A stretch of DNA of 44,398 nt from a virus. Within the stretch, counting starts at the first letter, position 1. The number at the start of each line of letters is the position of its first letter. Shown here in pieces: positions 25,141 to 42,527 of the stretch. The position numbers were made by a program, and so were the translations under genes. Under the pieces are notes generated by a model. The model was not told the DNA's origin. It worked only from the letters and a program-made list of their open reading frames with translations, and ran no database searches. Location: positions 1 to 44,398 of the IMG/VR virus record IMGVR_UViG_3300008120_006850; one strand, given 5' to 3'.

Positions 25141-25150
25141 ATTTATAACT

Positions 25151-25178
25151 AGTATACCATGGCATTTAAGAAAATCAA
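25151..25178 (-). promoter_or_regulatory. Probable extended -10 promoter for the DruA-like gene
   Basis: On the minus strand: TTGATT (25173-25178), a 16-bp spacer and TATACT (25151-25156) preceded by TGG, an extended -10. The ATG is 10 bp further on, so the leader would be only about 3 nt. The element lies inside the first codons of the opposite-strand gene. Confidence 0.5.
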
Positions 25179-37843: not shown

Positions 37844-37859
37844 AACGTATATAACTAGA

Positions 37860-37891
37860 AAGCCGGTGGGGTATAAAAACTCCACCGGCTT
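37860..37891 (-). terminator. Strong hairpin terminator between the SSB and uvsX genes
   Basis: The stem AAGCCGGTGG-like arm (37860-37869) pairs with CCACCGGCTT (37882-37891) around an AT-rich loop. On the minus strand it follows the SSB stop by 12 bp and ends in TTTCTAG; the plus strand also carries a T-rich tract. The uvsX ATG follows 17 bp later with no promoter between, so read-through must supply uvsX. Confidence 0.75.
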
Positions 37892-37902
37892 ATTTTTATT
37901 TT

Positions 37903-38673
37903 TTAGGAGTTAAACAAGTCATCAAATGCTTGTTCTACCTTAGCTGGTGTTGCAAATGGAGCTTCATCATCATCGGCAGAAGCAGCTGTTTCTGTTGGAA
38001 CAGAAGAATCCGATGTTGTTTCTGGATTCAACCACTTATCCATCACTTCCTTGAGTTCATCATAAGAAAGTTCTGGGAATAGATCCAGAATGTTAACTTG
38101 TGCCTTTAGAGCATCAAGCAACTGAGTATTCTTTGGATCAATAGCAACACTTACATTTGGCTTAACACGAATGCTGGTTTCTGGGAAACTAGCACCACCT
38201 TCAGCAGTCTTGAATTCAACAACGATGTCACGACCACTGGTTAGATCAGTAATATCACCAAAATCAGGATCGCTGATAATAGATAGAAGTTCCTGATATA
38301 CTTGCTTACCAAATCCCCAGAACTTTACACCTTCGTGTTCTTCGCCACGAACAATTACTGGAGCAAATGTACGCATCTTTGGTTCCATCTTGCGACCCAT
38401 CTGCCAATCTTCCTTAGAACCAGTTTTCTTCAAACGGTTACTAAACTCAACGATTGGATCTGGACGACCGAAACTATCGGGAGATAGATAAGTCTTGTTA
38501 TTGATATTGTAGTGAAACTTTAGCTCAATGAAAGGATTCTCAGGAGCATACTTGTAGGGAACAATACGAACTACTTGTTTACCGGGCTTTGGTTTCCAAA
38601 TCAAGTTGGATTTTTGATTTGTGTTTGAGAGTGAGCTCAAACGGCTCTTTAGCTTACTAATGTCTAATGCCAT
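37903..38673 (-). CDS. Single-stranded DNA-binding protein (T4 gp32-like)
   Basis: This is a 256-residue protein. The N-terminal LDISKLKSRLSSLSNTNQKS is a basic self-interaction region like the gp32 'LAST' segment. LIWKPKPGKQVVRIVPYKYA, PENPFIELKFHYNINNKTYL and FGRPDPIVEFSNRLK are typical of the gp32 core in marine T4-like phages. The zinc-binding His/Cys set of T4 gp32 is absent. A Pro/Thr/Ser-rich linker leads to an acidic tail (ADDDEAPFAT, FDDLFNS), the usual partner-binding end. The 70-nt leader contains a hairpin and an A/U tract that resemble the gp32 autoregulatory operator. Confidence 0.88.
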   Translation of the reverse strand: MALDISKLKSRLSSLSNTNQKSNLIWKPKPGKQVVRIVPYKYAPENPFIELKFHYNINNKTYLSPDSFGRPDPIVEFSNRLKKTGSKEDWQMGRKMEPKMRTFAPVIVRGEEHEGVKFWGFGKQVYQELLSIISDPDFGDITDLTSGRDIVVEFKTAEGGASFPETSIRVKPNVSVAIDPKNTQLLDALKAQVNILDLFPELSYDELKEVMDKWLNPETTSDSSVPTETAASADDDEAPFATPAKVEQAFDDLFNS

Positions 38674-38731
38674 AATTTATTTAATTTGTTAATTGTTAAT
38701 TAGTTAATTATTTTTGAGTCACTCGACTCAA
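38674..38731 (-). promoter_or_regulatory. Probable SSB autoregulatory mRNA leader
   Basis: In the mRNA a perfect 7-bp hairpin, UUGAGUC and GACUCAA with a 4-nt loop (38714-38731), is followed by 40 nt containing no G at all and three AAUUAAC-type repeats plus AAAUUAAA, ending at the AUG. There is no Shine-Dalgarno sequence. T4 gp32 represses its own mRNA by binding from a 5' pseudoknot along such an unstructured A/U tract. An overlapping CAAGU/ACUUG pairing just upstream could form an alternative fold or a pseudoknot. Confidence 0.55.
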
Positions 38732-38750
38732 GTATAACCAACTTGATCTT

Positions 38751-38779
38751 AGTCTACACCAGGTGCAAATCAAAATCAA
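38751..38779 (-). promoter_or_regulatory. Possible promoter for the SSB gene
   Basis: On the minus strand: TTGATT (38774-38779), a 17-bp spacer and TAGACT (38751-38756). It would give a leader of about 71 nt starting just upstream of the hairpin. A TTGACT lies 5 bp further upstream. Matches are moderate. Confidence 0.4.
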
Positions 38780-38793
38780 GTCAAAAATATATA

Positions 38794-39189
38794 TCAAATT
38801 TCTGAGATAGAAAACAATTTTAATGGAATTATTTTAACTCCGATATCATTGGTTAATATGATGGAGTTTTTATATAGATCCCAGTTTAATTGAAAATTTT
38901 TATCATATACACCGTTGTTTTCGTCAGCAATTAATTTATTCATTGCATTGAGTGTATATAATGTATTTGTCTGTTTCTTACGATGTATACTTATCGTGCC
39001 TTTATAACGATTGTTTTGTTCACTCTTTTCTACATTGAATGTCAAATATAATTCACGCAAATTATTTTCATTTGCAAATATGAAGATTTTATTATCAACT
39101 AAAGTATATTGTTGACTAATTTCACTCAATACAGAAGTATATTGACTACTGTTTGAAAATGTGCAAAGTAATTGTTTTTGAACGATCAT
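38794..39189 (-). CDS. Hypothetical protein
   Basis: This is a 131-residue protein that I do not recognise with certainty. It has an alternating beta pattern (KQLLCTFSNSSQYTSVLSEI, NKIFIFANENNLRELYLTFN) and a segment GTISIHRKKQTNTLYTLNAM. It has no signal peptide or membrane helix. Its start overlaps the stop of the large 672-residue gene by 4 bp (ATGA). The stop lies about 120 bp upstream of the SSB start. Confidence 0.6.
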   Translation of the reverse strand: MIVQKQLLCTFSNSSQYTSVLSEISQQYTLVDNKIFIFANENNLRELYLTFNVEKSEQNNRYKGTISIHRKKQTNTLYTLNAMNKLIADENNGVYDKNFQLNWDLYKNSIILTNDIGVKIIPLKLFSISEI

Positions 39190-41204
39190 AATGCTATTGA
39201 TGTACCTGATAATTTACCGTAAGGCATTACTAGTATTCTACATCCCAATAACAATATGACTTTACCTTTTTTAGTATAAGAGAAATTTTCTTCTTCGGTA
39301 AAACGTGCATATATTACAGGTCGATATTGTAAAATTGGATCCTCAGCGTTTTTTGGAGCCGGAAGATTTGGGTTAAATAAAATATGGCCTCTTTTATCTG
39401 TAGAAATTTTTATTCCATCCGGTTCATTCTCTTGATTTGTGTGATACTCTACGTCTAGAACTTCATTGGTTTGAATCAAACATTGTACATTTTCGGGTCC
39501 GTAATTTGTTGAATTCAACTTAAAATCCAAACCATATATTGTCATACCAGCAATTTGCTTAGACTCTTCCGTACCATCTAACATATCCATCCAAACAGAA
39601 AATCCTCTTGGCAAGAAATATATTTCTTTATCTAAACCAGGATTGTTTTTGAAAACAGTTTGAACCGAAGCTGCGTTTGCATTTATTAAATCTATTTCTT
39701 CTTGAGAGAATAATACATTTGAATCATTTGTTCGGACTTTTCTGTTTTTAGCGTCTATATTTATAGTATAACCACTACGAATCGTAGTTGGTGATGGTAA
39801 TTTTTCAGTAATTTTAGATAAAAAGTTTGATATTATCTCTGCCCATTTGCCTTTTTCACTACCAAGTTTTGTATGTAAAGTTTTTATACTTCCATATTGT
39901 TGAAATGGTACAGGTGATAACGCTTTTGCCGAACCTTCTTCTGACCAATAGTTACCGTGTTTATACGATATCCAAAATTTTGGTACAGAATTTGCTGTTA
40001 ATGCTAAATCGGCTTTGCCCGTGCCTTTGAGTTTTTCGGCACCATTTACACTGACCCCTGTATCTCTAAATTCGTTAAGTTCATCCGAAATATAAAGTCT
40101 CATAGGAACTTTAATTTCGTTTTTTACAAACCAATCGTTCAAATTTTGAACTTGCATTTGTTCATAACCCAAACCACGAGCTGCTTTAGCTATCAATTCT
40201 ACTTTATCACTGTTATTGGTATAAAATTGATATGCCATTATAGCTCTCTTAAAATCGGTACTTGAAATTGATTTAGCAGTAGACCATTCGGCGATTCTTA
40301 TGTTTGATACTGTTCTTATCTTTTTTACAGTACCAGCATATGTTATTACAAGTTTACCTTCTTTTTTTAGAATATTTTCCAAACCGATATAGTTTACAGG
40401 AGTTGTAAGACCGTATTTATTGTTGCTACCAGGAGAAATCGTTACGTTTGATACATTTTGATTTACATTATTAATAATTTCTTCATCCGTAAATTTTTCC
40501 AATCCTAATTGTCTTAAAACTTCAATATTAACATTATCGGCTTTAATACGAGTTGCTTCTGCTAAAGATCTAATTATTGGTTTCCCATTTGTTTCATCAA
40601 ATACTTGTTCACCAATTAACTCTCCTTCGGAATTGTACCAATTCATTCCTTTTCTGTAAAACCCATACTTTTTGGCTTCATCTACACTATAATTTACTAA
40701 TGGTGTTTGACCTGTTAGTATTGATTGTACACCTACAGCATCTATTTGCTTTTCTTTTGGAGTTCTTTCGTCTTTATCAGTATCTACAACCTTATCAGAA
40801 AGTTCTTGATCAATTGATATATCTTTTGGTTTTTGTTCGTCTGGTTGATAAATAGAATCTGATTCTCCACCAGCCTTTACATCTGGAGGAGGTGTTGTAA
40901 ATATATTAGCATCTGACTTTTTAGGATTTTCAGCAAAGTGAGTGCCTTTATTTACGGCTCTATCTCTATATTCTTTATTTGGAAATGTAACAAGAATACC
41001 ATCTTTGTTGTATGCTTGTCTTTCAGGAAATTTACCAGCTTCAAATAGATTAGCTGTTTTTTCTACGATATAGTCAACGCCACAGCCAGACTTTTCAAGA
41101 TACTCTTGTAGTACAAAAACATGATCTGGGTTACCAAGATCAAAAATACCGTTCTTTATACGACCGTCACAACAAATATCGTTTACTAATGATTTAAAGT
41201 TCAT
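39186..41204 (-). CDS. Large hypothetical phage protein, possible nuclease-like core
   Basis: This is a 672-residue protein. The N-terminal segment (NDICCDGRIKNGIFDLGNPD, then KFPERQAYNKDGILVTFPNK and EYRDRAVNKGTHFAENP) reads as a conserved domain of T4-like environmental phages. Residues about 95-160 are a polar linker (Pro, Asp, Lys rich). The central part contains GKADLALTANSVPKFWISYK with HGNYWSEEG and VPFQQYGS after it: an Asp-x(n)-SxK arrangement that could be a PD-(D/E)XK core, which is tentative. The C-terminal 130 residues are beta-rich (VILLLGCRILVMPYGKL). Both a virion role and a DNA-processing role remain open. Confidence 0.6.
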   Translation of the reverse strand: MNFKSLVNDICCDGRIKNGIFDLGNPDHVFVLQEYLEKSGCGVDYIVEKTANLFEAGKFPERQAYNKDGILVTFPNKEYRDRAVNKGTHFAENPKKSDANIFTTPPPDVKAGGESDSIYQPDEQKPKDISIDQELSDKVVDTDKDERTPKEKQIDAVGVQSILTGQTPLVNYSVDEAKKYGFYRKGMNWYNSEGELIGEQVFDETNGKPIIRSLAEATRIKADNVNIEVLRQLGLEKFTDEEIINNVNQNVSNVTISPGSNNKYGLTTPVNYIGLENILKKEGKLVITYAGTVKKIRTVSNIRIAEWSTAKSISSTDFKRAIMAYQFYTNNSDKVELIAKAARGLGYEQMQVQNLNDWFVKNEIKVPMRLYISDELNEFRDTGVSVNGAEKLKGTGKADLALTANSVPKFWISYKHGNYWSEEGSAKALSPVPFQQYGSIKTLHTKLGSEKGKWAEIISNFLSKITEKLPSPTTIRSGYTINIDAKNRKVRTNDSNVLFSQEEIDLINANAASVQTVFKNNPGLDKEIYFLPRGFSVWMDMLDGTEESKQIAGMTIYGLDFKLNSTNYGPENVQCLIQTNEVLDVEYHTNQENEPDGIKISTDKRGHILFNPNLPAPKNAEDPILQYRPVIYARFTEEENFSYTKKGKVILLLGCRILVMPYGKLSGTSIAL

Positions 41205-41208
41205 CTAT

Positions 41209-41234
41209 TATAAATATAGATATAAATATATTTA
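41209..41234. repeat. AT-rich direct repeat and palindrome between genes
   Basis: TATAAATATA occurs twice (41209-41218 and 41221-41230) and merges into the perfect 12-bp palindrome TAAATATATTTA (41223-41234). It lies between the polymerase-like gene stop and the start of the 672-residue gene. It could be a weak promoter/operator element or simply AT-rich spacer. Confidence 0.4.
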
Positions 41235-42527
41235 CATTTGGACTAATTTCAAATCATTGTAATTATTTCCCTCGTATACCTTAACTTTGAAACGTTTATT
41301 CTTGATAATCTCAATCAAATCCGTTATATCATTTGGGTCTACATTACCAACATCAAACAATATAGCATCATAATTGTATAGTATAGTCGAAATCTGTTTA
41401 CCAGCAGTAAACTTTAAACACGACTGTAATCTGTCCATACCATACTCGGTTTCCGCCGCTTGAATAATATACGCAAACAACTTATTCTTGTTTGGATCAG
41501 CAATATGTTTGTTGGTTATCTTTCTCTTATAAATCGGAGTATTTACATAACCTTTATTTATAAACTGATTCCAGTATTTGTTCTTTAGTTCATCGGTTCT
41601 CTTAAAATAATCTATGTTTATATAGGCTTCATTTATCTGACCATATAAATTGACCATCGTGAGCTTTTTAGCCTTACCAATTAGTTCAGGCGCAACAGAA
41701 TCGGTATCGTAGTACTGTTTAGCTAAATGTTCATAGATAGTTTCTGATTCGGGTACTTTATAATCAATCAGATTGGCTACGATATATGGATGAAATCCTG
41801 TAAAGTCTACCATCATCAAATGACCACCGTTATCATATCTTGATACAAAACTAGCCCTACATCCGTCGTCTTTCTTAAGAGCTACATAATTTACGCCATC
41901 ATATGAATTACTAGGTCTACCAGTTGGATTATAAATGTTGTAATTTGTGTAAACGTATCCATCATATGTACGAGCTTTAAAGTGTTCTTTGAACAGATCG
42001 ACATTAATCTTTAATCCGTTTTTCTCAACCTCATATAAGGTGTCTGTAATTACCTCATTGAAAAACTTAAAACAATATGTATCGGTCTCTTTGTCTGACA
42101 GATCTTCAATTTGTTGAATTTCTGCATCAAAACATTCTTGATGTGTTACATACGGAACAATCAGATTAAAATCTTTGATATTACGATAACTACTTTGTAT
42201 AAAATCTTTACAAGACGAACTCACTTCATCCAAAGTCTCGTTGTTTTCAATAAACCCAAAAATATTGGTATCAATCAATTTACAATCAATCCAGTACTTA
42301 TAAGTTTTTTTGTTTTTTACGTAAACTTCATATGGATTGTTTTCTAACTCTTTCTTGATTTCCTCAAAAGAAGAATTAGTTGATAAATCAGTATGTCCAA
42401 TATTATAATAGTATTTTTCTTTGCTACCAAAATCGTAAATAAACGCAGCAATAACATTGCCACACTTGTTATGGCAATTGTTGTCTCTGGTTATTAACTT
42501 GAGATAAATTTTGGATGAATACTTCAC
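41232..42527 (-). CDS. Divergent family A DNA polymerase-like protein
   Basis: This is a 431-residue protein. The core of a Pol I-type polymerase is seen in order: YNPTGRPSNSYDGVNYVALK (TGR at 202-204), MMVDFTGFHPYIVANLI (motif A, Asp241), IGKAKKLTMVNLYGQINEAY (motif B, Lys287 and Tyr295), FAYIIQAAETEYGMDRLQ (the 'iQg.aAD..k' helix) and LYNYDAILFDVGN (motif C, Asp387). Oddities are His246 at the E. coli Glu710 steric-gate position, Met291 for Phe762, Ile283 for Arg754 and Tyr386-Asp387-Ala388 for His-Asp-Glu. The first 160 residues show no clear exonuclease motifs. The start is GTG with a consensus promoter whose -10 is 6 nt upstream. Confidence 0.8.
   Translation of the reverse strand: MKYSSKIYLKLITRDNNCHNKCGNVIAAFIYDFGSKEKYYYNIGHTDLSTNSSFEEIKKELENNPYEVYVKNKKTYKYWIDCKLIDTNIFGFIENNETLDEVSSSCKDFIQSSYRNIKDFNLIVPYVTHQECFDAEIQQIEDLSDKETDTYCFKFFNEVITDTLYEVEKNGLKINVDLFKEHFKARTYDGYVYTNYNIYNPTGRPSNSYDGVNYVALKKDDGCRASFVSRYDNGGHLMMVDFTGFHPYIVANLIDYKVPESETIYEHLAKQYYDTDSVAPELIGKAKKLTMVNLYGQINEAYINIDYFKRTDELKNKYWNQFINKGYVNTPIYKRKITNKHIADPNKNKLFAYIIQAAETEYGMDRLQSCLKFTAGKQISTILYNYDAILFDVGNVDPNDITDLIEIIKNKRFKVKVYEGNNYNDLKLVQM

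Follow-up and report, generated by a model that had tools for sequence, protein, structure and literature searches.

A conserved folded leader as a candidate autoregulatory operator of gp32-type single-stranded DNA-binding protein genes in uncultivated phages

Gene 32 of bacteriophage T4 is the textbook case of a protein that represses its own synthesis. We know of no earlier indication that this self-repression persists beyond T4 and RB69.

The T4 operator combines a folded element at the 5′ end with a tract of more than 40 nt bearing UUAAA (PMC535899). Self-repression begins when gp32 nucleates on the 5′ element—a pseudoknot—and then spreads along the AU-rich, UUAAA-bearing tract over the ribosome site (PMC535899; PMC3014915). 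The 5′ end of the gene 32 mRNA lies at −71 and is made by RNase E, and the most stable T4 mRNAs are gene 32 transcripts (PMC3014915). The occluded site of T4 gp32 measures 7 nt (PMC10484735). A second T4 operator, that of the DNA polymerase gene 43, is a non-pseudoknot hairpin located ~40 bases upstream of the start codon and bound by the gene’s own protein (PMC3014915).

Here, we compare these systems computationally with a locus on the 44,398-nt viral record IMGVR_UViG_3300008120_006850 (IMG/VR), the whole of which we refer to as ‘the window’. Very probably, a conserved RNA fold stands at the head of the mRNA for the single-stranded DNA-binding protein (SSB) of this uncultivated phage, with AU-rich repeats at even intervals behind it (Table 1). 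An initial annotation of the window had already read the SSB leader as a gp32-type operator. That reading gains support from hairpin conservation, a predicted upstream promoter and gp32 homology, whereas the alternative helix, the missing Shine-Dalgarno sequence and the differing repeat unit that it also listed fare less well in the analyses below.

Table 1 Features of the SSB locus in the window (P1, outer helix; P2, inner helix; R1, covariance model of P1 and P2).
Feature	Position	Strand	Basis or remark
Predicted −35 element TTGATT (TTGACA in several relatives)	38774..38779	−	consensus; spacer 17 bp
Predicted −10 element TAGACT (TAnnnT in relatives)	38751..38756	−	position by consensus only
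Predicted SSB mRNA leader, 72 nt, whole candidate operator	38674..38745	−	fold z −4.66; R1 model match
P1 5′ arm AGUUGGUUAU, at predicted mRNA 5′ end	38734..38743	−	folding, covariance counts
P2 5′ arm UUGAGUC	38725..38731	−	alignment, covariation, fold
GAGU tetraloop (relatives: RNGU, with final G and U invariant)	38721..38724	−	alignment
P2 3′ arm GACUCAA	38714..38720	−	alignment, covariation, fold
P1 3′ arm AUAAUUAACU, contains first AAUUAAC repeat	38702..38711	−	folding, covariance counts
Predicted unpaired G-free tract, further repeats up to start codon	38674..38701	−	repeats, spacing, fold
gp32-like SSB gene	37903..38673	−	256 aa; regulated gene and presumed repressor

A gp32 homologue and its gene neighborhood

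The SSB matches the SSB PHROGs 1192 and 224 as well as the Pfam gp32 family PF08804 (E = 4.9e-13, above cut-off). Searching the PDB with the single SSB sequence returned chance matches only, and a profile was therefore needed: built from 41 SSB relatives, it matches T4 gp32 (8gme; E = 2.5e-5). When the AlphaFold model of the SSB (mean pLDDT 71) was submitted to Foldseek, RB69 and T4 gp32 ranked at the top (E = 7.5e-11 and 5.3e-10), and the same two proteins were its best fold matches (Z = 14.0 and 13.7 over 187–192 residues, with the next unrelated entry at 5.0). By profile and fold, the SSB is thus a true gp32 homologue. It contains no cysteine—40 relatives have none or one—and consequently lacks the T4 zinc site, a T4-specific trait on which neither the Pfam nor the fold match depends. 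At 256 aa, the window SSB is ~20 residues shorter than its relatives (272–282 aa), with an apparently shorter acidic C-terminal linker.

On the same strand, the SSB gene is followed by genes for a UvsX-like recombinase, an exonuclease, a DnaB-like helicase and a large NrdA-like ORF, the latter assigned by sequence reading only. Directly after the SSB stop codon lies a very stable hairpin (AAGCCGGTGGAG-loop-CCCCACCGGCTT; 37860–37891, minus strand) that is near-identical in most relatives and, in divergent ones, has a changed stem that still pairs; it is probably a terminator or a 3′ stabilizer of the SSB mRNA. The sequence CTAGTTATA (37850–37858, minus strand), located a short distance ahead of the uvsX-like gene, is conserved at uvsX in most relatives, and a second copy (25144–25152, minus strand) precedes another gene. 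A second promoter class is possible, although two copies are within chance expectation.

Upstream of the leader, a 672-aa ORF (39186–41204, minus strand) with no Pfam or PHROG match shares a four-base overlap with a 131-aa orphan ORF that sits just upstream of the SSB leader. A 431-aa ORF (41232–42527, minus strand), likewise without Pfam or PHROG match, contains the motifs DFTGFHPYIVANL and KKLTMVNLYGQ, which by eye resemble the palm of a divergent family A DNA polymerase. A single scan of bacterial and archaeal genomes yielded no confirmed SSB relative, and a photosystem gene, sought as a clue to the host, had no match in seven contigs.

A covarying hairpin at the predicted 5′ end

Scanning viral contigs identified 80 SSB relatives, and three further scans enlarged this set. 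The SSB leaders were reduced to 35 representatives, including that of the window. The stable 7-bp hairpin described in the initial annotation is indeed present in the window, as UUGAGUC(GAGU)GACUCAA (P2; 38731–38714, minus strand), and the folding energy of the predicted leader (72 nt) is −17.3 kcal/mol, whereas shuffled sequences average −5.8 (z = −4.66; none of 200 shuffles did as well). A hairpin with an RNGU-type loop recurs in all 35 leaders, on stems of very variable sequence (GAGUC/GAUUC, GGGUC/GAUCC, GGUUU/GAACC, AACUU/AAGUU, GAUUC/GAAUC, UACUU/GAGUA, AGUUUC/GAGACU and others), and eight of nine P2 pairs show compensatory changes. Across 23 distinct hairpins, 92.4% of cells are paired as compared to 66.6% after shuffling, and double-change cells number 53 versus 17.2. 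The P2 covariation score is 0.814, as opposed to 0.284 in shuffled and at most 0.18 in slid controls; conservation among relatives, which had been proposed as a check on the hairpin, is hence accompanied by strong covariation. Along the SSB gene tree, the eight inner P2 pairs underwent at least 66 changes, with 30 canonical-to-canonical double changes and 13 changes to a non-canonical pair, the latter mostly at the two outermost pairs. The P2 hairpin is real and under selection. Its second pair—a U-A below the closing pair—and the G and U of the loop are almost invariant, a pattern suggestive of recognition by sequence at the loop end of the hairpin.

An overlapping alternative helix (UCAAGU/ACUUGA), also part of the initial annotation, exists in the window but is not conserved: it is broken in the closest relatives (L002 and L001), and across the 35 leaders it does no better than after shuffling (5.4 versus 5.0).

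Folding each relative revealed an outer helix, P1, that surrounds P2 and had previously been overlooked. Here, GUURGUUA(U) at the predicted mRNA 5′ end pairs with (A)UAAUUAAC, the first of the repeats. A covariance model comprising P1 and P2 (R1) finds 33 of the 35 leaders with E-values from 1.3e-15 to 0.0015 and, weakly, L158 (E = 0.14) and L055 (E = 0.52); as R1 was built from most of these leaders, they match it by construction, with L079, L159, L160, L162 and L057 standing outside model building. In an alignment of 31 distinct leaders fitted to R1, P1 and P2 together are 94.1% paired, with changes on both sides in 14 of 19 pairs. Since the sequence of P1 is mostly invariant, most of its pairs constitute weak evidence of pairing, and since only a small number of divergent leaders (L055, L057, L158 and L162) supply its compensatory changes, P1 is less firmly shown than P2.

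Within the window, R1 returned a single match (38671–38745, minus strand; 90.3 bits) and no second copy of the element. Each of the five larger contigs with a clear R1 match likewise contained exactly one strong match, any others being weak; the strongest of these (G003, 69802–69867; 25.9 bits) has no comparable hairpin by eye. At gathering score, Rfam matched neither the window nor any of 13 related loci, one of which was the T4 gene 32 region, and at E-values up to 10 it returned chance-level matches only.

Promoter consensus places the predicted transcription start at 38745–38743, i.e., at −72 to −70 relative to the SSB start, and with this position the predicted mRNA begins at the foot of P1. 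In most relatives, TTGACA-like and TAnnnT elements spaced 16–18 bp apart end 7–9 nt before P1. In some, an overlapping promoter register scored higher, with a TAGACT/TACACT box still at the same place. The promoter is predicted to be conserved and of the sigma70 type, with the 5′ end adjoining P1. Transcription starting downstream of the hairpin had been named as an outcome that would undermine the operator reading; the predicted, conserved promoter is found upstream instead. The 5′ boundary first assigned to the element, 38756, falls in the predicted −10 box (38756–38751), with the RNA predicted to start around 38745.

Repeat register and comparison with T4 operators

The AAUUAAC repeats reported earlier are present in the SSB leader, and the two occurrences of the exact pattern AATTAACWAATTAA within the 44-kb window both belong to this leader. 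Counting the first repeat within P1, the UUAA cores of the window are spaced 8, 7 and 8 nt apart. Across leaders, 106 of 117 UUAA spacings are 7 or 8 nt, a register matching the 7-nt site of gp32. The stretch from P2 to the AUG spans ~40 nt and is AU-rich and mostly G-free in relatives. In the window, the G-free run extends over 48 nt (38719–38672) rather than the 40 nt initially noted; it is unremarkable on its own, being the fourth longest on that strand of an AT-rich genome. A Shine-Dalgarno sequence is absent from the SSB leader as stated before, but equally so from 37 of the 44 window ORFs of at least 100 aa, making its absence a general trait of this phage rather than a peculiarity of the leader.

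With the T4/RB69 gene 32 operator, the locus shares the gene family (gp32) and a ~40 nt, AU-rich, UUAA-bearing tract that extends to the AUG; its folded element would likewise lie at the mRNA 5′ end (−71 in T4; predicted −72 to −70 here). The repeat unit had been thought to set the leader apart from T4, yet direct examination of the T4 leader sequence revealed the same repeat core, AAUUAA; what does differ is the spacing of UUAA, with 4–5 nt in T4 and 7–8 nt here. Several further differences exist. The T4 fold is an H-type pseudoknot, whereas the present one is a two-helix hairpin with an RNGU loop, and inspection of the leaders by eye found no consistent loop pairing and no T4-type pseudoknot. 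The T4 5′ end results from an RNase E cut, as opposed to a predicted promoter start here; the T4 tract overlaps a Shine-Dalgarno sequence, of which the window leader has none; and T4 gp32 has a zinc site, while the window SSB is devoid of cysteines. The proteins are homologous, but the hairpin sequences cannot be aligned. In having a hairpin and not a pseudoknot as its candidate operator fold, the leader resembles that of T4 gene 43, which in turn differs by its protein, its loop (UAAC) and an operator composed of hairpin and ribosome site with no long repeat tract.

Leaders of distant gp32 homologues (L226–L305; ~50–60% identity) gave no significant R1 match. For 27 distant leaders, the layout consists of a TATACTTAT-like box predicted to be −10-like, a hairpin 2–10 nt after it and an AU tract of 34–43 nt up to the AUG. 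Their hairpins are unrelated in sequence (for example, AUCAAG-GUUAUA-CUUGAU and GGUUAC-aaaa-GUAACU). Among 70 distant leaders, a spacing of 7 or 8 nt accounts for 46 of the 80 between UUAA cores. Hairpins are modestly enriched in the most divergent group, with 52% scoring above a threshold that 32% of control genes also exceed. A TGTATTTT...TATACTTAT element upstream of the 5′ hairpin is common to the leaders of the distant homologues L246–L298, and GGTTAY recurs in these leaders and in the P1 arm of the window.

The SSB of L057 is 98% identical to those of L026/L027-type phages, but its leader is of another type. Nearly identical SSBs behind unlike leaders suggest that leader and gene have been exchanged between phages and that the hairpin-plus-repeat plan was kept in the process.

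Proposed self-repression and competing explanations

Part by part, the layout described here corresponds to that of T4 gene 32, with the two-helix hairpin in the position of the pseudoknot. Autogenous translational repression by the SSB is the best-supported explanation, and we consider it likely that the leader acts in cis as a translational operator through which the gp32-type SSB controls its own synthesis. Transcription would start at approximately −71, and the mRNA would open with the two-helix hairpin, its 5′ end joining the first repeat to form P1 and the RNGU loop capping P2. Whenever there is more SSB than free single-stranded DNA to bind it, an initial SSB would settle as a seed on the folded element. 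Additional monomers would next cooperatively fill the 28–40 nt AU tract up to the AUG, one per UUAA unit of 7–8 nt, and the filled tract would exclude the ribosome. When free single-stranded DNA rises, SSB would leave the mRNA and translation would resume.

A more elaborate version of this mechanism is speculative, and we think it unlikely. The leader would be a molecular ruler, whose UUAA units, set at the SSB site size, phase the filament from the RNGU-capped hairpin; since the first repeat is paired with the mRNA 5′ end, the growing filament would also open P1 and free that end, which would link repression to decay, and hairpins would have been repeatedly replaced within the gp32 family while the layout was kept.

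The main rival, although improbable, is that the 5′-terminal hairpin serves as an mRNA stabilizer, with P1 blocking 5′-end-dependent decay and rendering the SSB mRNA long-lived independently of SSB binding. Fold and 5′ position would fit such a function too, given that the predicted 5′ end coincides with the start of P1 in relatives; a near-invariant hairpin is present after the SSB stop codon as well, and the stability of T4 gene 32 transcripts (PMC3014915) points in the same direction. What stabilization leaves unexplained is the sequence-specific RNGU loop with the almost invariant U-A below its closing pair, the 7–8 nt UUAA register and why no gene other than that for the SSB was seen to carry the element. 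A stabilizing role could coexist with the operator as an additional function.

We regard it as quite unlikely that the leader is a translation enhancer, i.e., that the AU tract recruits the ribosome independently of a Shine-Dalgarno sequence and the hairpin either keeps the tract open or acts as a standby site. The AU-rich, mostly G-free tract of the relatives and the lack of Shine-Dalgarno sequences in the leader and most phage genes agree with this proposal. However, the exact repeat pattern occurs only at the SSB gene in the window, even though most genes there have no Shine-Dalgarno sequence, and AU repeats are kept in distant relatives although 47 of the 70 distant leaders carry a Shine-Dalgarno-like motif, many of them AGGAG.

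The near-perfect inverted repeat right after the promoter could alternatively be taken for a DNA operator bound by a transcription repressor, yet we assign this very little probability. Of the P2 pairs, 46 of 282 are G-U, and so are two P1 pairs kept in most leaders; such pairs are tolerated in an RNA helix but disrupt a palindrome in DNA. Moreover, stem sequences change freely among relatives whose SSBs are 75–90% identical, and the sense strand folds better than the antisense strand in 35 of 35 leaders. This strand preference, together with the G-U pairs in P2, indicates that selection acts on the RNA rather than on a palindrome in the DNA. Finally, a transcription attenuator or terminator, as a stable hairpin between promoter and gene might suggest, can be dismissed, as the hairpin is followed by A-rich sequence with no U run and a terminator scan does not list it.

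A leader of this kind is not described in the open-access literature searched, most subscription papers lying outside this coverage. By analogy, the leader would work like the gene 32 operator but has no recognizable pseudoknot, such that the fold may be the new part and the kind of switch a known one. In a large group of uncultivated phages, there is thus a covariation-supported candidate operator whose fold differs from that of T4, whose loop is defined and whose repeat register matches the footprint of the protein. This leader permits a direct test of whether gp32-type proteins recognize the fold, the loop or the spacing of repeats in RNA.
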